Shown here one piece after another: positions 6,833 through 48,145 of a stretch of DNA of 64,000 nucleotides. The DNA comes from Thermomonas sp. XSG (GTDB taxonomy: Bacteria > Pseudomonadota > Gammaproteobacteria > Xanthomonadales > Xanthomonadaceae): positions 2,620,001-2,684,000 of the forward strand of contig NZ_CP061497.1 in assembly GCF_014678725.1 (NCBI RefSeq). Direction: 5' to 3'. The position numbers and the translations under genes are program-made. Positions within the stretch are counted from its first letter, which is position 1, and every line of letters begins with the position of its first letter. The notes under the pieces were generated by a model that saw nothing but the letters and a program-made list of their open reading frames with translations, was not told the DNA's origin and ran no database searches.

Positions 6833-8200
6833 GTGTTCGAATCCCTGACCCAGCGCCTGTCCGGCACCATCGAGCGCCTGCGCGGCCGCGGCCGCCTGAC
6901 CGAGTCCAACATCAGCGAGGCCGTGCGCGAGGTTCGCATCGCGCTGCTGGAAGCCGACGTGGCGCTGCCGGTGGTGCAGGCGCTGATCCAGCGCATCAAG
7001 GTGCGCGCGGTGGGCCAGGAGGTGATGCGTTCGCTCTCGCCCGGCCAGGTGCTGGTCAAGATCGTGCGCGATGAACTGGCGGCGGTGATGGGCGCGCAGG
7101 CGTCCGACCTCAACCTCAACGTGCCGGCCCCGGCGGTCATCCTGATGGCCGGCCTGCAGGGCGCGGGCAAGACCACCACCGTGGCCAAGCTCGCCAAGCA
7201 CCTGAAGGACAAGCGCAAGAAGAAGGTGATGGTGGTCAGCGCCGACGTCTACCGCCCGGCCGCGATCGAGCAGTTGCAGACGCTGGCGGGGCAGGTGGGC
7301 GCGGTGTTCTTCCCGTCGCAGGCCTCGCAGAAGCCCGAGGCCATCGTCAAGGCCGCCATCGACGAGGCGAAGAAGACGTTTGCCGACGTGCTGATCGTCG
7401 ATACCGCCGGCCGCACCAGCATCGACGACGCGATGATGGCCGAGATCAAGGCGCTGCACGGCGCGGTGAACCCGGTCGAGACCCTGTTCGTGGTCGACTC
7501 GATGACCGGCCAGGACGCGGCGGTGACCGCCAAGCACTTCGGCGAGGCGTTGCCGCTAACCGGCGTGGTGCTGACCAAGACCGACGGTGACGCCCGCGGC
7601 GGTGCGGCGCTGTCGGTGCGCTACATCACGGGCAAGCCGATCAAGTTCATCGGCGTGGGCGAAAAGCCCGACGGCCTGGACGTGTTCCATCCGGATCGCG
7701 CCGCCGGCCGCATCCTCGACATGGGCGACGTGCTGTCGCTGGTCGAGCAGGTCGAGGCGCAGGTCGACAAGGACAAGGCGCAGAAGCTGGCCGAGAAGGT
7801 CGCCAAGGGCAAGAAGTTCGACCTCAACGACATGCGCGACCAGCTCGAGCAGATGCAGAACATGGGCGGTCTGTCCGGGCTGATGGACAAGCTGCCCGGC
7901 GTCGGCCAGTTGCCGGAGCACGTCAAGCAGCAGGTCACCGGCAAGGAAGTGCCGCGGATGATCGCCATCATCAATTCGATGACGAAGAAGGAGCGCCGCA
8001 ACCCGGATCTCCTCAACGGCTCGCGGCGCGCCCGCGTGGCGCGCGGCAGCGGCCTCACCCCCGCCGACGTCAACAAAGTGCTCAAGCAGTACCAGCAGAT
8101 GGAAAAGATGATGGGCAAGCTGGGACGCGGCGGCATGAAGGGCATGATGCGCGGGCTGTCCGGGATGATGGGCGGGCGCGGCGGACTGCCGTTCCGCTGA
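6833..8200 (+). CDS. ffh: Signal recognition particle protein Ffh
   Basis: The 455-residue SRP54 GTPase binds signal sequences of nascent membrane proteins together with 4.5S RNA and delivers them to FtsY. A GTG start at 6833 (FESLTQRLSGTIERLRGRG) gives the standard N-terminus; a long open extension upstream is not part of the gene. Domains are the N domain (1-90), then the G domain with GLQGAGKTTT, DVYRPAA, DTAGR and TKTDGDARGG, then a C-terminal M domain with methionine-rich helices (MEKMMGKLGRGGMKGMMRGLSGMM, here only cited by its parts MEKMMGKL and GMKGMMRGL) binding signal peptide and RNA. Confidence 0.97.
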   Translation: MFESLTQRLSGTIERLRGRGRLTESNISEAVREVRIALLEADVALPVVQALIQRIKVRAVGQEVMRSLSPGQVLVKIVRDELAAVMGAQASDLNLNVPAPAVILMAGLQGAGKTTTVAKLAKHLKDKRKKKVMVVSADVYRPAAIEQLQTLAGQVGAVFFPSQASQKPEAIVKAAIDEAKKTFADVLIVDTAGRTSIDDAMMAEIKALHGAVNPVETLFVVDSMTGQDAAVTAKHFGEALPLTGVVLTKTDGDARGGAALSVRYITGKPIKFIGVGEKPDGLDVFHPDRAAGRILDMGDVLSLVEQVEAQVDKDKAQKLAEKVAKGKKFDLNDMRDQLEQMQNMGGLSGLMDKLPGVGQLPEHVKQQVTGKEVPRMIAIINSMTKKERRNPDLLNGSRRARVARGSGLTPADVNKVLKQYQQMEKMMGKLGRGGMKGMMRGLSGMMGGRGGLPFR

Positions 8201-8295
8201 GCCTGCAGTCCGCCTGCCGCAACCGCTACCGTCAATCATTCGCGACGATGCAGGAAACCTGCGGTTAAGCTTCGCCCTCGCGTCGGGGGACGCGC

Positions 8296-9420
8296 ATGGG
8301 GAAAGCCACGATGTTCGAAGGGGAATCCGGTACGCCGGAGCATGTGTCTGCCGCGCCGGCGGAAACGCCGGTGGTCCGCCACCAGCCGGAGTTCTCCGGC
8401 CGCGTTGGCGAGTGCTTTGGTATCTGGTTCGTCAACCTGCTGCTGGGCATCGTCACCCTGGGCATCTATTCGGCCTGGGCGAAGGTGCGCACCGAGCGCT
8501 ATTTCTACGGGAATACCCGGCTGGCGGGTTCCAGCTTCGATTACCTGGCCGACCCGATCGCCATCCTCAAGGGGCGGCTGATCGCCTATGCGGTGTTGAT
8601 CGCGCTGGGCCTGTCGTCGCATTTCCTGCCACTGCTGTACGTGGTGATCCTGTTGGCACTGGCGGCGCTGATGCCGCTGATCATCGTGTTGGGCCTGCGC
8701 TTCCGTGCGCGCAATTCGGCCTGGCGCGGGCTGAGCTTCCGCTTCGACCGCGGCGGCGGGGAAGCCTACGGCCCGTTCCTGGGCTGGCCGATCCTCAGTG
8801 GCCTGACCGCCACCCTGCTGTATCCGCTGATGAAGCTGCGGCAGCACGAGTTCGTCGTTGCCGGCCACGGCTTCGGGCGCCAGCGCTTCGGCTATGCCGG
8901 CGATGCCGGGCGCTACTACGTGCCGTACCTGATCGCGCTGGGGATCGGCGTGGGCCTGATGGTGCTGTTCTTCCTGGCCTTCGGCGCGGTGATCGCGGCG
9001 GGCGTGGTCGCCGGCAAGGGCGAGGCCAATGGTGCCGGCGGCGCGGCGCTGGGCGTCGGGATGGTGGCTGCGCTGCTGCTGCTCTACGGCGGCATGTTCG
9101 GCGTCGGCATCTTCCTGCGGGTGAAGTTCGCCAACCTGCTGTGGAACAGCGCGCGGCTGGGCCCGCACCGCTTCGAATCCACCCTGCGCGTGCGCGACAT
9201 GCTGTGGATCTACTTCAGCAACCTGGTCGCCATCGTCTGCACGCTGGGCCTGGCGGTGCCGTGGGCGATGATCCGGCTGGCCCGCTACCGCGCAGCGCAC
9301 TTCGCGGTGTGGGTCGAGGGCAGCTTGGAGGAGTTCGTGCACGACAGCGGGCGTGACCATGGCGCCGCGGGCGCGGAGCTGGTCGACGCGCTGGACGTGG
9401 GCGTCGACCTGGGCTTCTGA
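8296..9420 (+). CDS. DUF898 (YjgN-like) inner-membrane protein
   Basis: The 374-residue polytopic membrane protein of the YjgN/DUF898 family has unknown function. Family marks are FWFVNLLLGIVTLGIYSAWAKVR-type segments (here LLLGIVTLGIYSAWAKVRTE), repeated later in diverged form as FSNLVAIVCTLGLAVPWAMI, and RYFYGNTRLAGSSFDYLADP. About six to eight hydrophobic segments follow a 35-residue cytoplasmic lead. Its stop codon overlaps the start of the downstream M48 protease gene by one base, so the two are translated together. This pairing suggests a shared envelope role, but nothing in the sequence shows which. Confidence 0.85.
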   Translation: MGKATMFEGESGTPEHVSAAPAETPVVRHQPEFSGRVGECFGIWFVNLLLGIVTLGIYSAWAKVRTERYFYGNTRLAGSSFDYLADPIAILKGRLIAYAVLIALGLSSHFLPLLYVVILLALAALMPLIIVLGLRFRARNSAWRGLSFRFDRGGGEAYGPFLGWPILSGLTATLLYPLMKLRQHEFVVAGHGFGRQRFGYAGDAGRYYVPYLIALGIGVGLMVLFFLAFGAVIAAGVVAGKGEANGAGGAALGVGMVAALLLLYGGMFGVGIFLRVKFANLLWNSARLGPHRFESTLRVRDMLWIYFSNLVAIVCTLGLAVPWAMIRLARYRAAHFAVWVEGSLEEFVHDSGRDHGAAGAELVDALDVGVDLGF

Positions 9421-39998: not shown

Positions 39999-41285
39999 AT
40001 GTTCACCAGGCTTCACCTGATCCGCTTCAAGGCCTGGCAGGACACCGGCGAGCTGGCGCTCAGGCCGGTGACGCTGCTGCTGGGCACCAACTCCTCCGGT
40101 AAGTCGTCGCTGGTGCAGAGCCTGCTGCTGCTCAAGCAGACGGTGCAGTCGCCCGATCGCACGATCCACCTGGACCTCGGCGGCGACGAGGCCAGCGACC
40201 TGTTCGATTTCGGTGGCTTCGACGACGTGTTGCACCGGCAGGACGGCGCGCCGCGACGGTTTTCGCTGGCGTTCTCGTTCGCGCATCCGGGCCCGAGTCG
40301 GGTGGCTGCGGGCAGTTTCGCGTGCAGCTACGGGCGGTCCCCGGCCGGCGGTGCGGTGGTCGAGGAGATGGCGATGGCCGCTGGCGGGCGCCGGTTCCGT
40401 GCGGTCCGCCGCGAACGCGGCGCGTATTCGGTATTCGTGGATGACGAGGCTCGGCCACGGCTGAAGGGCGGCCAGTACGCGCCGGAGCGCTCCATCGCGC
40501 TGCCTGCGGATGCGATCGCCGCGCTGGACAAGGACGGCCAGCTGGCCGAGGACCTGAGCCTGGCGATCCGTCGCGAACTCGAGGGGATCCACTACCTCGG
40601 CCCGCTGCGACGCAGGCCAGAGCGCGCGTACGCGTGGAGCAGGTCGCGGCCCGGCGAGGTGGGCAGCGACGGCCGCGCCGCGATCGACGCGCTGCTGGCC
40701 AGCGTGCTGCTGCGCGGCGACGGGCAACCGGATGTGCTTGAGGGCGTCGCGCGCTGGCTGTCGCGGATGCGCCTGGCCGACCGGCTGGAGGTGCGCCAGC
40801 AGGGGCGCTCCGGCCGCTACGAACTGCTGGTCCATCGCGACGGCGTGGCCAGCAACCTGCGCGACGTCGGCATCGGCGTATCGCAGGTGCTGCCGGTGCT
40901 GGTGCTGGCGCATTTCGCCCCGGCCGGCAGCACGATCATGCTCGAGGAGCCCGAGATCCACCTGCATCCGCTGGCGCAATCGGTGCTGGCCGAGCTGTTC
41001 GTCGAGGTCAGCCAACGGCGCCAGGTGCAGTTCATCGTCGAGACCCACTCGGAGCACCTGTTCCGGCGCATGCAGACGCTGGTCGCGGCGCAGAAGGCCG
41101 GCCGCGAGGCGGTGGCGTTGTACTTCGTCGAACGCAACGGCGGTGGGGCGCAGCTGCGCGACCTGGCGCTGGACGACTATGGCCGCGTCACCGTCTGGCC
41201 GAAGGACTTCTTCGGCGATGCGCTGGGGGAAACCCGCGAGCAGGCGCGGCTGATGTTCGAGCGCCAGCAGCGGACGCCGCGATGA
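39999..41285 (+). CDS. AAA ATPase with DUF3696-like C-terminus (OLD/PARIS-like ABC-type ATPase)
   Basis: The 428-residue ATPase of the SMC/ABC-like AAA_15/AAA_21 group opens with MFTRLHLIRFKAWQDTGELA. Walker A is GTNSSGKSS (29-37). A signature-like DVGIGVSQVLPVLVLA lies at 289-304, Walker B STIMLEEPEIHLHP at 311-324 and a switch-histidine segment VETHSEHLF at 348-355. The last 30 residues (VWPKDFFGDALGETREQARL) resemble DUF3696. Such ATPases are sensors in several phage-defence modules, where they control a neighbouring nuclease. The next gene overlaps by four bases (ATGA) and encodes a PIN-like nuclease. Confidence 0.85.
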   Translation: MFTRLHLIRFKAWQDTGELALRPVTLLLGTNSSGKSSLVQSLLLLKQTVQSPDRTIHLDLGGDEASDLFDFGGFDDVLHRQDGAPRRFSLAFSFAHPGPSRVAAGSFACSYGRSPAGGAVVEEMAMAAGGRRFRAVRRERGAYSVFVDDEARPRLKGGQYAPERSIALPADAIAALDKDGQLAEDLSLAIRRELEGIHYLGPLRRRPERAYAWSRSRPGEVGSDGRAAIDALLASVLLRGDGQPDVLEGVARWLSRMRLADRLEVRQQGRSGRYELLVHRDGVASNLRDVGIGVSQVLPVLVLAHFAPAGSTIMLEEPEIHLHPLAQSVLAELFVEVSQRRQVQFIVETHSEHLFRRMQTLVAAQKAGREAVALYFVERNGGGAQLRDLALDDYGRVTVWPKDFFGDALGETREQARLMFERQQRTPR

Positions 41286-41809
41286 GGGCGCGCTACGTGG
41301 TCGATACCAACGTGCTGATCGCGGCGAGCGCGGTGGACGGGGAGCATCCCAGCGCCATCGACGCCACCCCAGGGGATCCGGCGCTGCGCAGGGTGGTGTG
41401 GGAGTGGCTGGACCGCTTCCAGCGCAGCGACGCCCGACTGGTGCTGGACGGCGCCGGCGGGATCTTCGCCGAATACCACAACAAGCTCGGCTTCAACGAT
41501 TACGGCATCCAGGTGGTGCTGCACAAATGGAGCATCGCGGCGGTGGACAATGTCGCGGTCGAATATGACGGCAACGGCGAGGCCATCCTGCCGGCATCGC
41601 TCGCGCAGGTGGTGCACGACGGCGCCGACCGCAAGATGGTGGCAGCGGCGCTGGCCTCGCATGCGCAGTTCGGCGAGGGCTGCGTGGCCTTCGCCGGCGA
41701 TACCGACTGGCATGATTGGGAAGACGCACTGGCCGAACACGCGGTGCTGCTCGAGCCGATCATCGAGGCCTGGTCGCGCGCCAAGCACGCGGCCAAGCAG
41801 CAGCGCTAG
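41282..41809 (+). CDS. PIN-domain-like nuclease
   Basis: The 175-residue protein opens with YVVDTNVLIAAS (Asp8), the first PIN acidic motif. Further acidic residues sit at GIFAEYHNKLG (Glu64), VHDGADRKMVAAAL (Asp116) and FAGDTDWHDWE (Asp140, Asp142), giving a complete set for a metal-dependent RNase. It overlaps the ATPase gene by four bases and is followed after 8 bases by an RNA ligase gene. It probably cleaves RNA under control of the ATPase. No antitoxin gene is attached, which differs from VapC pairs. Confidence 0.75.
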   Translation: MRARYVVDTNVLIAASAVDGEHPSAIDATPGDPALRRVVWEWLDRFQRSDARLVLDGAGGIFAEYHNKLGFNDYGIQVVLHKWSIAAVDNVAVEYDGNGEAILPASLAQVVHDGADRKMVAAALASHAQFGEGCVAFAGDTDWHDWEDALAEHAVLLEPIIEAWSRAKHAAKQQR

Positions 41810-41817
41810 AGGAGCGA

Positions 41818-42534
41818 ATGGACGATTTCTTCCGTTTTCCGCACACCCCCCACATCGCCTGGCTGGGCGAGGGCATGCCGCGCGACGACAAGGTGCTCGC
41901 GCCCGACGAGGTGCGCACCCTGTTGGAGGGCCCGGTGGTGGTGGAGGAGAAGTTGGACGGCGCCAACCTCGGGTTTTCGCTGGGGCCGGACGGCCGGCTG
42001 CGCGCACAGAACCGCGGGCAGTACCTCGAGCTGCCGCACGCCGGCCAGTTCCAGCGCCTGCCGGAATGGATGGCCGGGCACGGCGAGGCGCTGGCCGCGC
42101 TGCTGGGAACGGAGCTGATGGCGTTTGGCGAATGGTGCGCCGCGCGGCATTCGCTGGATTACCCTGCGCTGCCCGACTGGTGGCTGCTGTTCGACGTCTA
42201 CGATCGCCGCCGGCAGCGCTTCTGGAGCACCGGCCGCCGCGACGGGCTGGCGCGCGAGGCCGGGCTGGTGGCGGTGCCGAGGATCGCCGAGGGCGAACAC
42301 ACCGTGGCGATGTTGGAGGCACGCGTGGCCGAGGGCCGCAGCCGCTTCCGCGAGGGCGTGCTGGAAGGCGTGGTGGTGCGGCGCGAGAACGAGGACTGGC
42401 TGCTCGCCCGCGGCAAGCTGGTGCGCGCCGATTTCACCCAGGCCATCGAAGGCCACTGGCGCAGCCGCAAGCTGGAGTGGAACCGGATCGACTGGCAGGC
42501 GGCCGCATCCGGGACGCGGGACCCCGCCGAATGA
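41818..42534 (+). CDS. RNA ligase family nucleotidyltransferase
   Basis: The 238-residue protein starts at 41818 behind GAGGAGCG, 8 bases after the PIN gene. Motifs of the covalent nucleotidyltransferase superfamily are in order: motif I VVEEKLDGANLGF with the AMP-accepting Lys45, motif III-like MAFGEWCAARHSLDY, IIIa LLFDVYDRR, motif IV EGVVVRRE and motif V GKLVRADF. This arrangement fits T4 Rnl2/DraRnl-like RNA ligases (PF09414) that reseal RNA breaks. It lacks an obvious additional domain. Together with a PIN RNase it suggests RNA cutting and repair within one operon. Confidence 0.82.
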   Translation: MDDFFRFPHTPHIAWLGEGMPRDDKVLAPDEVRTLLEGPVVVEEKLDGANLGFSLGPDGRLRAQNRGQYLELPHAGQFQRLPEWMAGHGEALAALLGTELMAFGEWCAARHSLDYPALPDWWLLFDVYDRRRQRFWSTGRRDGLAREAGLVAVPRIAEGEHTVAMLEARVAEGRSRFREGVLEGVVVRRENEDWLLARGKLVRADFTQAIEGHWRSRKLEWNRIDWQAAASGTRDPAE

Positions 42535-42658: not shown

Positions 42659-44092
42659 ATGCATGGAAGCGCGCCCCTGTTCGAGGTGGTCCCTGCCGGC
42701 ATTTTCGGCCCGCTGGCATCGGCCAACCGGCAGCACCACTGGGTGCTGCTGTGCCGGCTGTACGAGGAATTCTTCGGGCCCGATGCGCCGCTGGCGCCGC
42801 CGGTGGGATTCCAGCGCCGCGAGATCACCGCCGCCATCGAGCGCTACCTGCTCAGCGACGATCCCTGGGAGGACGAGGACGCGCAGGCGCCCGATGCGCC
42901 GCTGAACGTGCGCGCCAACGCGATCCACGAGCGTTTCCGCGCGGCCGGCTGGCTGCGCCAGGAGCGAGTGGGCGCGCGCGAGATGGTCAGCATGCCGCCG
43001 CTGGTGGCGCAGTTCCTGGCTACGCTGGTGGAGTTCGCCGAGCACGGGCCGACCTTCGTGTCGGTGAAGGTCCGCTCGATCGAATGGCAGCTGCGCCAGG
43101 TGGTGGAGGGCCGGGCCGGCGGCGACGCGCTGGACGAAGCCGCCGACCAGGCGCGGCGGCTGCTGGTGTCGCTGAGTTCGATGAGCCTGAAGGTGCGCGA
43201 CCTGATGCCCGAGCTGTCGCGCGCCGAGAGCACCGCGCAGTTCGCACGGCTGTGGTTCGAGCGCTACGTGTCCAGCTTCTTCGTCGGCGACTACGCCGAG
43301 CTGCACAAGGCCGACCACCCGCTGGCGCGGCGCGGCGCGATCCTCGGGATGGCGCGCGAGATCGAGACCGGCGACCGGCGCGCGGCGGTGCTGGGCTGGT
43401 ACGCCGAGCACCTGACCTCGGGCGACGCCGGGCGGGCCGAGGCGCGATTGGCGCGCAGCCTGCGCCGGCTGCACGAGCTGGAACGCATCGACGAATATCT
43501 GGGCCGGCTGGACGAGGACATCCGTCAGGCCAATCGCCGCGCGCTGGCGTTCCTCGACTACCGCCTGCGCGCGCCGGCCAAGCTCGATGTGCTGCTTGCG
43601 CGCGCGATCCGCGGCGCACTGGCGGCGCCGGACGATGCGCTGCGGCTGCCGGTGGCGCCGGGTGCATTGATGGACGAGGAGCAGCTGCGCCCGCCGCGGC
43701 GCAAGCCCGCCGCCATCGCCCGCAGCGCCAATGCCGTGGCCCGGCCCACGACCGAGCAGCAGGCGCGGTTGGCGCTGCTGCGGCGGATCAAGCGCGCGCG
43801 GCTGGTGACGGCGGAAGACATGGCCCGCTACGTCGGCCGCCACTTGCCAGCGGACGGGCGGGTGGACTCCGCCGAGCTTGCCATCGACAGCATCGCCGAC
43901 CTGCGCGCCTACCAGACCCTGCTCACCCTGGCCCTGCGCAGCCACCGCATCGGCGGCCTGCGCCGCGACGACCCGTTGACCCGGCTTGCCAAGGGCTTCC
44001 GGGTGGAGCTCGTCGACGCCGGCGAGCGCAACGACAACGGCTACCTGCGCGCCCCGCGCTTCGCCATCCACCGCATCCGAAAGACCGCATGA
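42659..44092 (+). CDS. jetA: JetA-family (MksF/kleisin-like) protein of a Wadjet/MksBEF complex
   Basis: The 477-residue kleisin-like subunit has the JetA/DUF5716-type opening (LFEVVPAGIFGPLASANRQH, WVLLCRLYEEFFGPD) and the winged-helix LNVRANAIHERFRAAGWLRQ. A long helical middle and a C-terminal winged-helix region (VTAEDMARYVGRHLPADGRV) follow. It should bridge the JetC ATPase heads and bind JetB. GGGAGG lies upstream of the ATG at 42659, although the frame stays open further upstream in the ligase region. It overlaps jetB by four bases (ATGA). Assignment to Wadjet type III is likely but not certain. Confidence 0.82.
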   Translation: MHGSAPLFEVVPAGIFGPLASANRQHHWVLLCRLYEEFFGPDAPLAPPVGFQRREITAAIERYLLSDDPWEDEDAQAPDAPLNVRANAIHERFRAAGWLRQERVGAREMVSMPPLVAQFLATLVEFAEHGPTFVSVKVRSIEWQLRQVVEGRAGGDALDEAADQARRLLVSLSSMSLKVRDLMPELSRAESTAQFARLWFERYVSSFFVGDYAELHKADHPLARRGAILGMAREIETGDRRAAVLGWYAEHLTSGDAGRAEARLARSLRRLHELERIDEYLGRLDEDIRQANRRALAFLDYRLRAPAKLDVLLARAIRGALAAPDDALRLPVAPGALMDEEQLRPPRRKPAAIARSANAVARPTTEQQARLALLRRIKRARLVTAEDMARYVGRHLPADGRVDSAELAIDSIADLRAYQTLLTLALRSHRIGGLRRDDPLTRLAKGFRVELVDAGERNDNGYLRAPRFAIHRIRKTA

Positions 44093-44727
44093 AACGCAGC
44101 TGGAACGTCCTCTCGCAACTCTCGAACGGCATCCACGCGGTGGCGGATTTCGAGAGCGCCGCCTATCGCCTGGTCACCGAGCAGGTGCTGTATGCCAGCG
44201 ACCGCGGCACGCGCACCGCCTACCACCTGGTGGAGGACCATTTCGACGATTACGTGGCCGCGCTGGCGCCGCTGGGCATCCGGCTGGAGCGCAACGCGCA
44301 TTACCGATACGTCGTCGCGCTGCCGGCGCACGCCGAGGGCGTGCCGGTGACGCTGGAGGAAACCCTGCTGCTGCTGGTGTTGCGCCAGCGCTACGACGCG
44401 GCGGCGCGGCAGGGCAACATCGAGGAACTGGGCGAGGTGGTGGTGGAGCTGCCCGAGCTGCAGGAGGCCTATCAGGCACTGATTGCGCGGCCGATGCCGG
44501 AAGTCGGCACGCTGCGCGCGCTGGCGCGCACGGTCAGGCGCTGGGGCGTGGCGCGGCTGGTGGACTCCGAACCGGACGACCCGCAGCCGTTCCACCTGCG
44601 CGTGCGCCCGGCCATCGTGGACATCGTCGGCGAAACCTGGCTGCAGCGGCTGGACCAGCACAACCGCGACGACGAGGCCGAAGACGCCGAAGTCGAGGCG
44701 ATGGGGGACGACGATGCAGCTGCTTGA
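44089..44727 (+). CDS. jetB: JetB-family (MksE/KITE-like, DUF4194) protein
   Basis: The 212-residue protein fits the DUF4194/MksE family of tandem winged-helix subunits that bind the JetA kleisin. The region HAVADFESAAYRLVTEQVLY, TLEETLLLLVLRQRYDAAAR and the C-terminal winged helix with DDPQPFHLRVRPAIVDIVGE are the conserved parts. It overlaps jetA (4 bases) and jetC (14 bases), so the three subunits are tightly co-translated. It ends in an acidic tail. Confidence 0.85.
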   Translation: MKRSWNVLSQLSNGIHAVADFESAAYRLVTEQVLYASDRGTRTAYHLVEDHFDDYVAALAPLGIRLERNAHYRYVVALPAHAEGVPVTLEETLLLLVLRQRYDAAARQGNIEELGEVVVELPELQEAYQALIARPMPEVGTLRALARTVRRWGVARLVDSEPDDPQPFHLRVRPAIVDIVGETWLQRLDQHNRDDEAEDAEVEAMGDDDAAA

Positions 44728-47700
44728 GCGCGTGCACCTGGTGCAGTTCTTCCTGTTCGAGGCGCAGACGCTCGAGCTGTCTCCCACCAGCGCCATCATC
44801 GCGCCCAACGGCGCCGGCAAGAGCGCGCTGCTGGACGCGCTGCAGATCGTGCTGCTGGGCGGCGACCGCTCGCGCATCCGCTTCAACGCCCAGGCCGGCG
44901 GCAGCGCCCGCGCCCGCTCGATCCGCGACTACTGCCTGGGCACCTGGCGCAGCGGCGAGGAAGGGCGCAAGCGGCGCACCGCCACCACCTACATCAGCCT
45001 GGTGTTCCGCGACCAGGACAGCGGCCTGCCTCTGACCGCCGGCATCGCGCTGGGGGCCAGCGCGGATGAGCCCGATCATCGCGTCTACGGCCAGTACATC
45101 GTGCCGGGTGTGGCGCTGACGCTGGACGACCACCTGGAGCGTGCCAACGGCCGCGAACTGCCGCTGGCCTGGGCCGGCTTCAAGGATCTGCTGGCAAGGC
45201 GCTGCCGCGAAGCGGGCAGCGGGCCGGGCCCGGAGCTGCATGCCGGCAGCGAGCGCTTCCTCAAGGATCTGCTGCTGCGCCTGCGCGCCTCGCCCGCCGG
45301 CCAACCCGACGTCAGCGCCTACCGCAAGGCGTTCCAGAACGCGCTGAACCTGCAGCGGGTGGAGGACGTGGACCTGTTCGTGCGCACGCTGGTGGCCGAG
45401 GACCGGCCGACCGACATCGCCCGTTTCCACGCGCTGCTGGATACCTTCCGCCAGCTCAAGGAGAAGATCGAACAGGTGGTGGCGCGGATCGCGGCGGCCG
45501 AGGGCGTGGACGCGCAGTACGAGAAGATCGCCCAGCAGGCCACCCGCGCCGCCAGCTGCCGCGCACTGGCCGCGGAATACGCGCGCGACCTGCTGTCGGA
45601 ACAGGTGGAGCAGGCCGAGGCGGCTTGCGAAGCGGCCACCCGCCAGCTGGCCGACACCCGCCGCGCGCTGGGCGAAGCCAGCAGCGAACAGGCGGCCATC
45701 GAGGATGCACACGCGCAGGCGCAGGCGCGCCTGCAGGGCAGCGCAGGCTACGGCGAGCAGGCGCAGATCGACGAGCTGGCCGGGCGCGACCGCGGCGAGC
45801 TGGCGCGGCTCAAGCGCGAACTCACCCGCAGCGTCGGCATGGTGCGCGAGCAGTGGCAGGCGGCCGCCAGGCTCGAGCTTCCCGCGCTGGACGCGGCCGC
45901 GCTGGCGCAGGCGCAGGCGGCTTGGCAGCGTTGGTATGACGCGCTGGCGGCTTTGCCGGTCGATGCCGAACTGCCGTGGCAACCCCCCGCGCTGTTCGCC
46001 GAGGCGCACCAGGCGCTGGCCGCCGCGCAGCCGCTGATCGCCGCCGTCGACGGCCACGCCCGCGCCCTGCATGCTGGTGTGGACGAGGCGCAGGGCCGGC
46101 TGGCCGCGGCGCGGCAGAACCAGAAGCGCCTCGCCGCAGGCAAGGCGGAGCTGCATCCCGACGTGGTGCGGCTGATGCACTACCTGCAGGACGAAGGCAT
46201 CTCCGCGCGCCCGGTCTGCGACTTGGTGCGGGTGCGCGATCCGGCCTGGCAGGGCGCCATCGAGGCCTATCTGCGCGGCAATGTCGAGGCGCTGCTGATC
46301 CCTGCCGCCGACGAGGAGCGCGCGGTGAAGTTGTATCGCGCGCTCAGCGGCGGGCGCAGCGTGTACGGCGTCAAGCTGGCGCTGTCCAGCGCGGCGCGGC
46401 GCGGAGGCGAGGACCCCAGGCCGGGCAGCGTTGCCGCCTTGCTGGAAGGCGACAACGTCGAGGCGCTGGCGTTCCTGCGCCGCACCCTCGGCGAACTGCG
46501 TTGCGTGGACAGCGAAGCGGAACTGGTCGCCAGCCGCCAGGGCCTGACCCGCGACGGCCTGCTGGCCAAGGGCGGCAGCATCGAGCGCCGGCGCCTGCCC
46601 GCGGCCGACGAGCTGAAGATCGGCGCCAGCGACAATCGCGCGCGCCTGCGCGTGCTGCGCGAGGACATCGACGCCGCCGAGCGCGAGCTGCGCGAGCTTG
46701 AACCGGCGCTGCGCCGCGCCGATGCCTGCCAGCGCGGCCTGGCACCGCTAGCCGATCCCGAAGCGCTGGCGCAGGCACTGCGCGATGCGGCGCTCGAACA
46801 CCGTCAGGTGTTGCGCCGCTACCGCGACGCGCAGGAGGGCCGCGAGGCCGCGCAGAACCCCGACCTGTTGCGTGCGTCCGAGCAGCTGCGCGAGTTGGCC
46901 GACCTGCTGGCCGCCTGCCGCAGCCGGCGCGATGCGCTGCTGGGCAGGGTGGCGCTGGACGAGGGTGCGGAGACCGCCGCGCAACGCCTGCTGGACGGCC
47001 TGCGCGGCCAGGAAGACCTGGTCGCGCGGCGTGCGGTGGAAGCCTTCCGCGATGCCGACGTGGATCCCAACCGGGTCGAACGCCTGCGCGAGGAAATGGA
47101 CGCCAAGTGGCCCGCGCTGGAAGAGCGCGGCGCGCGCTGCGAGGAGCGCGCGAGGGACAGCGACCGCCAGCTGGACAACCTCAAACCCGAGGCCTGGGGC
47201 ACGCTGTCGCAGTACGCCAAGGACCACGGGCTGGCGCTGGCGCTGGCCCCCGGAGACTGGCGCGCAGCGCGCAGCCTTCTGGCGAAGGAACTGGCGCAGC
47301 TGCGCGAGTCCGAACTGGCCAACTACCAGCGCCAGGCCGACGAGGCCTACGCCACCGCCACCGAGACTTTCCGCAGCAACGTCGCTTCGGCGCTGTACGA
47401 CAATTTCAGCAAGCTGAAATACCAGATCGGCACGCTCAACCGCACGCTGCGCGCCAGCCCCGCGTTTTCCAACAACGAGCGCTACCAGTTCCACTACGAG
47501 GTCGCGCCCGAATACCGCGAGTTGCACCGCTTCATCCAGCGGGTGGCCGACGTCGGGGGCGAAGACGGCCTGTTCGGCAGCGCGGGCGAAGTGCCGGCCG
47601 CGTTCCGCGAACTGATCGAGGACAACGCCGCGCAGCGCGGCGCTGCCTCGGCGCTGGACGACTACCGCCGCTTCTTCCGCTTCGAGGTGCAGATCCGCCA

Positions 47701-48145
47701 GGACGACAAGGTGATCGGCTCGCTGTCCGAGCGCATGCGCTCCGGCTCCGGCGGTGAACACCGCGCGCCGCTGTACGTGATTGCCGGCGCCGCGCTGGCC
47801 GCCGCCTACGGCAAGAGCACGGCGCATCCGGGCGGGCTGGGGCTGATCCTGCTGGACGAGTTCGGCGACAAGATCGATGCGCAGAACGCACGCGCCACCG
47901 TCGACTACCTGCGCTCATTGGGCCTCCAGTTGATCCTCGCTGCGCCCGACACCGCACAGGGCACGCTGTCCGGCGTGCTGGACAGCTACATCGAACTGTT
48001 CCGCGACGGCGACCTGCTGCAGGCCGAACGCATCGAAGTCGGCGAAGCGGCGCGGGCACTGCTGCTCTCCGACCAGTTCGACCTGCACCCGCAGCTGCTG
48101 GCCGAGGAGGCCGCGCGCATCGCCGCCGGCAAGGGCGAGGCGTGA
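44714..48145 (+). CDS. jetC: JetC-family (MksB/SMC-like) ATPase
   Basis: The 1143-residue SMC-like ATPase has an AAA_29-type N-terminal head with Walker A APNGAGKSALLDALQIVLLG (Lys36), about 800 residues rich in Ala, Arg, Glu and Gln that should form an antiparallel coiled coil with a hinge near 480-560, and a C-terminal head. The signature is SGSGGEHRAPLY (1010-1021) and Walker B LGLILLDEFGDKID (Asp1048, Glu1049). It would extrude DNA loops as in Wadjet or MksB. The start at 44714 overlaps jetB by 14 bases. The usual downstream nuclease gene jetD/mksG (DUF3322/DUF2220) is absent; a LacI regulator gene follows. Confidence 0.9.
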   Translation: MQLLERVHLVQFFLFEAQTLELSPTSAIIAPNGAGKSALLDALQIVLLGGDRSRIRFNAQAGGSARARSIRDYCLGTWRSGEEGRKRRTATTYISLVFRDQDSGLPLTAGIALGASADEPDHRVYGQYIVPGVALTLDDHLERANGRELPLAWAGFKDLLARRCREAGSGPGPELHAGSERFLKDLLLRLRASPAGQPDVSAYRKAFQNALNLQRVEDVDLFVRTLVAEDRPTDIARFHALLDTFRQLKEKIEQVVARIAAAEGVDAQYEKIAQQATRAASCRALAAEYARDLLSEQVEQAEAACEAATRQLADTRRALGEASSEQAAIEDAHAQAQARLQGSAGYGEQAQIDELAGRDRGELARLKRELTRSVGMVREQWQAAARLELPALDAAALAQAQAAWQRWYDALAALPVDAELPWQPPALFAEAHQALAAAQPLIAAVDGHARALHAGVDEAQGRLAAARQNQKRLAAGKAELHPDVVRLMHYLQDEGISARPVCDLVRVRDPAWQGAIEAYLRGNVEALLIPAADEERAVKLYRALSGGRSVYGVKLALSSAARRGGEDPRPGSVAALLEGDNVEALAFLRRTLGELRCVDSEAELVASRQGLTRDGLLAKGGSIERRRLPAADELKIGASDNRARLRVLREDIDAAERELRELEPALRRADACQRGLAPLADPEALAQALRDAALEHRQVLRRYRDAQEGREAAQNPDLLRASEQLRELADLLAACRSRRDALLGRVALDEGAETAAQRLLDGLRGQEDLVARRAVEAFRDADVDPNRVERLREEMDAKWPALEERGARCEERARDSDRQLDNLKPEAWGTLSQYAKDHGLALALAPGDWRAARSLLAKELAQLRESELANYQRQADEAYATATETFRSNVASALYDNFSKLKYQIGTLNRTLRASPAFSNNERYQFHYEVAPEYRELHRFIQRVADVGGEDGLFGSAGEVPAAFRELIEDNAAQRGAASALDDYRRFFRFEVQIRQDDKVIGSLSERMRSGSGGEHRAPLYVIAGAALAAAYGKSTAHPGGLGLILLDEFGDKIDAQNARATVDYLRSLGLQLILAAPDTAQGTLSGVLDSYIELFRDGDLLQAERIEVGEAARALLLSDQFDLHPQLLAEEAARIAAGKGEA

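Follow-up and report, generated by a model that had tools for sequence, protein, structure and literature searches.

Why should a bacterial operon that already encodes an ATPase and a nuclease also encode an enzyme able to seal RNA? This question is raised by a locus at positions 39999-42534 of a 64,000-nucleotide stretch of the Thermomonas sp. XSG genome (contig NZ_CP061497.1, positions 2,620,001 to 2,684,000, forward strand; the whole stretch is referred to here as the window). A first-pass annotation had described there consecutive genes for an ATPase, a PIN nuclease and an RNA ligase, and had proposed that they form an RNA cut-and-reseal defence module. It was confirmed that the three genes lie in one operon with their active-site motifs intact, and the notion that the trio is a real, recurrent and conserved module, whose members function together, is well supported. 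Judged from sequence, the locus appears to be a ligase-bearing branch of the catalogued candidate HEC-03, whose anti-phage activity is likewise treated here as that of a candidate. We consider it evenly balanced whether, in this branch, an ATPase-gated PIN enzyme would cut host RNA and the ligase would reseal it, in a reversible anti-phage response.

The first protein carries a Walker A motif (residues 29-37), the Walker B glutamates (EE, 316-317) and His350, as well as a stretch that we read as signature-like (DVGIGVSQ, 289-296), and the Gly34-Lys35 pair of Walker A was kept in 66 of 66 ATPase rows covering that stretch. A Pfam search found no TOPRIM domain in it. The protein matched the AriA profile (E 3.6e-23) and AriA chains were among the sequence matches of the ATPase profile, so that what had been called OLD/PARIS-like is called here OLD/AriA-type. 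At the catalytic position that follows Walker B (317), Glu was found in 36 of 70 sequences, including the window's, and Gln in the other 34; Gln is present in loci L115 and L116 and in 30 of the 33 members of one ATPase group (three could not be read by the pattern). The replacement of Glu by Gln at that site in ABC ATPases usually locks the ATP-bound form, and there are hints that the Gln-bearing group may work as a latch rather than as a motor.

The product of the second gene is predicted to adopt a PIN fold, based on the comparison of its structure model with known folds, HARP being among the matches. By sequence, it did not reach the Pfam cut-off for PIN (PIN_3, 16.2 bits vs 27) and a PDB search with it returned nothing relevant. 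A full acidic set, as had been claimed for it, is nevertheless present (Asp8, Glu64, Asp113, Asp116 and Asp140), the first four residues being invariant among 44 PIN sequences and Asp140 kept in at least 90% of them. The ligase (238 residues) matched PF09414 at 107.2 bits (cut-off 27) and contains Lys45 within the motif EEKLDGAN. Residues K45, D47, G48, N50, E105, E183 and K200 were present in 81 of 81 rows, which bears out the nucleotidyltransferase motifs attributed to it. Its model was nearest to nick-sealing RNA ligases (Naegleria RNA ligase, T4 Rnl2 and trypanosome REL1), residues 215-217 and 226-238 being of low confidence, and this likeness of fold points to a putative Rnl2/Rnl5-type nick-sealing activity. 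No relevant match was obtained in a PDB search with the single ligase sequence, and a search with the ligase profile yielded weak RNA-ligase matches (best E 0.13). The 4-base overlap between start and stop, found in 34 of 67 relatives, depends on the choice of start and was not used as evidence.

Might the three genes be unrelated and neighbours by chance? When species genomes were scanned with the ligase, at least 576 relatives came up, and the best 80, which lean towards close relatives and include a near copy of the window (L002), were analysed. The full ATPase-PIN-ligase trio, with the ATPase scored at 80 bits or more, was found in 69 of these best 80 of at least 576, a PIN-ligase pair without a found ATPase in 10, and neither partner in one. 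Three of the 10 run off their contig (L026, L066 and L080), another has a PIN fragment only (L038), and six are two-gene loci (L057, L058, L067, L071, L076 and L081, at around 7400-8700, or 5742-7010 in L067), all of which keep the PIN acidic set. A fairer sample was provided by 398 Pseudomonadota genomes, that of the window among them, in which the ligase profile was found in 16 and the PIN profile in 15. The ATPase lay directly upstream of PIN in all 15 PIN loci (window included), and the ligase was next to PIN in 11 of the 15 PIN genomes and in 11 of the 11 holding both close families; the other genomes with a ligase had a distant, kinase-paired one (four) or a fragment (one, L117). Therefore, in the window's ligase clade the three genes are not rarely adjacent, nor is the ligase mainly accompanied by unrelated genes, and both samples lead us to dismiss a chance neighbourhood as next to impossible. 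Separately, an intact ligase was seen alone in L046 (8001-8753), among genes reading as glnS, cysS and ppiB.

The distribution of the trio is wide and uneven. Within the window's genus, PIN was found in three of 25 genomes, the window's own included, and the trio is also plasmid-borne, reaching Tistrella (Alphaproteobacteria) and Rhodococcus (Actinomycetota). Two DNA queries taken from other genera gave no match in E. coli genomes; the reach of such a test is low. A phage-borne origin was considered and rejected: 50,697 phage records gave three distant matches to the ligase and none to one HEC-03 PIN. Four ligase relatives, but no PIN relative, were confirmed in viral contigs; one of the four is a close relative, truncated by the end of its contig.

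The first-pass annotation knew of no named system with this composition, a statement that holds in part. PADLOC includes a candidate, HEC-03, made of HEC-03A and HEC-03B, and the window ATPase matched HEC-03B with E 6.3e-88. The match of the window PIN to HEC-03A was weak (E 3.8e-7, 28 bits) and became stronger in relatives, the trios L003 and L132 reaching 99 and 85 bits for PIN and 418 and 367 bits for the ATPase. Both genes are adjacent as expected for HEC-03, according to a rule inferred from the A/B names, at the 15 sampled PIN loci. The best-matching loci among those scanned, L115 and L116 (PIN at 174 and 252 bits), lack the ligase and have Gln at the Walker B site; in contrast, the window locus has the ligase and Glu, although many other ligase-bearing loci have Gln. 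The acronym HEC stands for "Hma-embedded candidate", and the available part of PMC12988326 states that several of these candidates are active, HEC-06 by name. As for the ligase-bearing branch, it was found described nowhere. No paper on the trio was found in the literature consulted, an earlier mention being possible in Krishnan et al. 2020, Burroughs and Aravind 2016 or Millman et al. 2022; the accessible sections of PMC7824862 and PMC13356809 (the latter naming HEC-03) do not describe it, and a search of PMC8565338 for four words gave no match. As an observation apart, the ligase-less pair of L116 (1-6199) lies on a 6 kb contig with genes that we read as those for phage lysis and portal proteins.

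A clue to what the ligase does came from its more distant relatives. Among plasmids, 19 records gave a match and eight of them were examined (H1, H2, H5, H7, H9, H10, H11 and H14; H12, H13 and H15-H19, likewise distant, were left out). For distant PF09414 ligases without PIN, an AAA_33-type kinase-like protein was found downstream in eight of the 10 places examined (L133, L134, L135, L146 and L149-L152), immediately after the ligase in seven and, in L146, with a single gene in between. For L134 and L135 the AAA_33 assignment was confirmed, and L135 also has an HD domain. This arrangement looks like a heal-and-seal cassette, in which the kinase would prepare the ends for the ligase. These cassettes share the ligase Pfam family with the window trio, but their ligases form a separate clade with a kinase-like protein nearby, and show no PIN and no match to the DUF3696 ATPase. 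Conversely, an AAA_33-type kinase was found in none of 123 ligase + PIN locus entries, some of which are one place fetched twice and 88 of which had at least 2 kb covered downstream. In a tree of 47 ligases the PIN/kinase label changes once, and the kinase group is set apart by a branch with support 99/100; this count excludes the viral ligases L147 and L148, and with these two as the root the trio rows need two changes. Four ATPase-less pairs and the solitary ligase of L046 are counted among the 39 PIN-type rows of this tree, in which L132 and L134 form long branches. Thus, the pairing of ligase with PIN stands for the window's clade and does not extend to the separate, more distant clade, which pairs with a kinase.

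VapC-type PIN cuts leave 3'-OH and 5'-phosphate ends, which an ATP-dependent ligase joins without healing. The lack of a kinase beside the PIN-linked ligases fits PIN cuts that need no end healing and, because VapC-type ends can be sealed as they are, the partner choice of the ligases matches the expected end chemistry. The six ATPase-less pairs suggest, in addition, that PIN and ligase may work together directly. All these observations could be integrated in a model in which the ABC-type ATPase would act as a sensor or gate that, once infection is sensed, releases or activates the PIN enzyme. The latter would cut a structured host RNA, most likely in a stem or loop of a tRNA or rRNA, and the resulting 3'-OH and 5'-phosphate ends could be sealed directly by the ligase. 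In this manner, the ligase would keep low-level or false-alarm cleavage harmless and let survivors recover, making the response reversible. The estimate given above for cut-and-reseal derives mainly from the ligase tree, from the lack of a kinase next to PIN and from how often the genes co-occur. The cut-and-reseal proposal of the first-pass annotation is therefore favoured comparatively, by the missing kinase and the nick-sealing-like fold; the target RNA and the reversal are parts of it that we infer. A stronger version, that of a graded, reversible and non-suicidal immunity in which the RNA cut by PIN is an essential one of the host and is itself restored by a nick-sealing ligase dedicated to it, is put forward tentatively, as somewhat less probable than not. 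Abortive systems based on nucleases tend to be depicted as one-way, and a recurrent cutter-sealer operon, if real, would reveal a way in which bacteria modulate or undo immunity that damages RNA. The trio also marks out a branch within HEC-03, and sets RNA ligases that pair with a kinase against those that pair with PIN.

The opposite role for the ligase can also be envisaged, namely that it is part of the attack and joins or 5'-adenylates the RNA ends exposed by PIN, fixing the damage. The protein consists of a nucleotidyltransferase domain only, so strong adenylation with weak sealing would be possible, a behaviour cited for one Rnl3 in the available text of PMC12153264. Nevertheless, all 81 rows have the catalytic residues expected in the motifs of a sealing ligase, and ATPase-PIN pairs exist without a ligase, which makes the ligase unnecessary for an attack, and this role is considered improbable.

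Is the trio, then, a defence module? The flanks of 10 sampled trio loci (L118-L127), with genes called by our own rule of GC by codon position, were examined by scanning 29 neighbour proteins against PADLOC, with an E threshold of 1e-20 or 1e-15. L125 reads PglX (truncated by the stretch edge), Ppl, an unmatched gene of 423 residues, ATPase, PIN, ligase, BrxHI, PglZ and BrxA, and L127 reads PglX, ATPase, PIN, ligase and BrxHI (truncated by the contig end). The trio of L119 and that of L123 have an HmaB-like methylase on one side and a PLD-type helicase on the other, L119 having also an Orf5/HEC-06-like protein. A defence role is fairly supported, to the extent that gene order can tell, because these four of the 10 loci carry the trio inside BREX or Hma-like operons. 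Copies on Aeromonas plasmids are near AbiE and a GASH system. Two further observations were made in these surroundings: a PDC-M07A candidate defence ATPase (E 1.1e-164) at 6587-7846 of L127, close to the BREX-embedded trio, and weak BrxHI-like frames (54-89 bits), within bases 1-2051 and several kb upstream of the ligase, in L011, L021, L022, L043, L070 and L079.

A number of findings weigh against reading the trio as a dedicated cut-and-reseal defence. The embedded loci come from two bacterial families only (f11 and f47), and the count has no random-gene baseline; five of the other six loci gave no PADLOC match, and L124 gave a single one, to REase_II (3e-23). On the plasmids of Azotobacter, Tistrella and Rhodococcus, none of the annotations flanking the trio names a defence system. 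Five of the six ATPase-less pairs are divergent to genes that we read as ExeA/GspB (with L071 as query), and this form may perhaps serve a non-defence use. The viral distant ligases L147 and L148 have neither a PIN nor a kinase match, and the end chemistry assumed for the trio's PIN family is that of VapC-type enzymes. Finally, four of the 15 sampled PIN loci (L113-L116) have no ligase, which would thus be dispensable, an add-on. The Mantel r of pairwise distances was 0.91 between ATPase and PIN, and 0.35 and 0.36 between the ligase and that pair, such loose distances looking more like those of an exchangeable partner than of a dedicated antidote. In an ATPase tree rooted, by our own choice, on L115/L116 (and with long branches for L011 and L131), the presence of the ligase needs three changes, L113 and L114 being nested among ligase-bearing loci; shuffled ligase labels needed a mean of 3.9, and 28 to 36 of 500 shuffles were as low. 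The pattern fits one gain and two losses, as far as this tree can be trusted.

This separability from ATPase-PIN is what might be anticipated if the ligase were a counter-countermeasure, repairing host RNA cut by phage or rival toxins, with ATPase-PIN defending on its own, possibly on phage RNA. The ligase also changes more slowly than its partners (identity between pairs averaged 0.67 over 65 trios, vs 0.47 for the ATPase and 0.41 for PIN), as expected for an enzyme with a constant substrate. However, the ATPase-less PIN-ligase pairs and the lack of any kinase in the 123 entries tie the ligase to PIN-type ends rather than to the cyclic-phosphate ones that known anticodon nucleases leave, and we regard this role as rather unlikely.

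A published parallel to a PIN nuclease linked to an ATP-dependent RNA ligase is HARP RNase P with Rnl3, for which, in the part of PMC12153264 available, the authors weigh a toxin-antitoxin against an RNA-processing pair. The proposed processing role serves as the model for another explanation of the trio, that of an RNA-processing or repair unit unrelated to phage, in which PIN would trim precursor or damaged RNA and the ligase would circularise or join it. This is unlikely, since the patchy presence in the genus, the plasmid carriage and the embedding in BREX or Hma-like operons fit defence better, and the trio families differ from HARP and Rnl3 by sequence. HARP-Rnl3 involves other PIN and ligase families, typically in divergent orientation, mostly in extremophiles and with no ATPase mentioned in the same excerpt (PMC12153264). 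An identity with it was rejected, as neither PIN_5 nor the Rnl3 domain was matched at E up to 1; against TIGR01209 the ligase scored 12.9 bits (cut-off 136.9).

Returning to the reading of an ATPase-gated cut followed by resealing, the layout of PARIS, a separate OLD-like ATPase (AriA) and a nuclease effector (AriB), resembles that of the window locus, which differs in that its effector has a PIN fold and a ligase is added. AriB was not matched by PIN or ligase at E up to 1, the presence of AriB models in the library being presumed. The window ATPase also matched the NsnB profile of Menshen (NsnABC; E 1.9e-54). In Menshen, according to the accessible text of PMC10952713, the predicted OLD nuclease has a DUF262 protein as its partner; this identity was rejected because the partners differ, no DUF262 match being found in PIN or ligase at E up to 1. 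Recent work has validated the PIN domains of other defence systems, as indicated in the available part of PMC13092281.

Table 1. Coordinates in the window of the trio genes and of the adjoining jet genes.
Feature	Position	Strand	Remarks
ABC-type ATPase gene (AAA_21/AAA_15 + C-terminal DUF3696), HEC-03B family	39999..41285	+	profile matches
PIN-fold nuclease gene, divergent HEC-03A family	41282..41809	+	start overlaps ATPase stop by 4 bases
PF09414 RNA ligase gene, nucleotidyltransferase domain only	41818..42534	+	profile match and motifs
jetA (neighbour, outside the module)	42659-44092	+	adjoins the trio
jetB (neighbour, outside the module)	44089-44727	+	part of jetABC
jetC (neighbour, outside the module)	44711-48145	+	start of our own choice

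The jetABC locus beside the trio (Table 1) had also been noted in the first-pass annotation, which saw in the trio a possible defence module. A complete Wadjet as neighbour was rejected, since JetD_C (PF09983) was not matched anywhere in the genome; the same domain was matched in one of 14 control genomes. We read jetABC without JetD as an Mks-like condensin or an incomplete Wadjet and, with JetD not found, this neighbour is weak evidence for defence. JetA was found in five of 25 genomes of the window's genus, the window's own included. Among 155 loci searched, most of them covering up to 8 kb on each side, jet genes were beside the trio only in the window genome and in G421, of the same genus.

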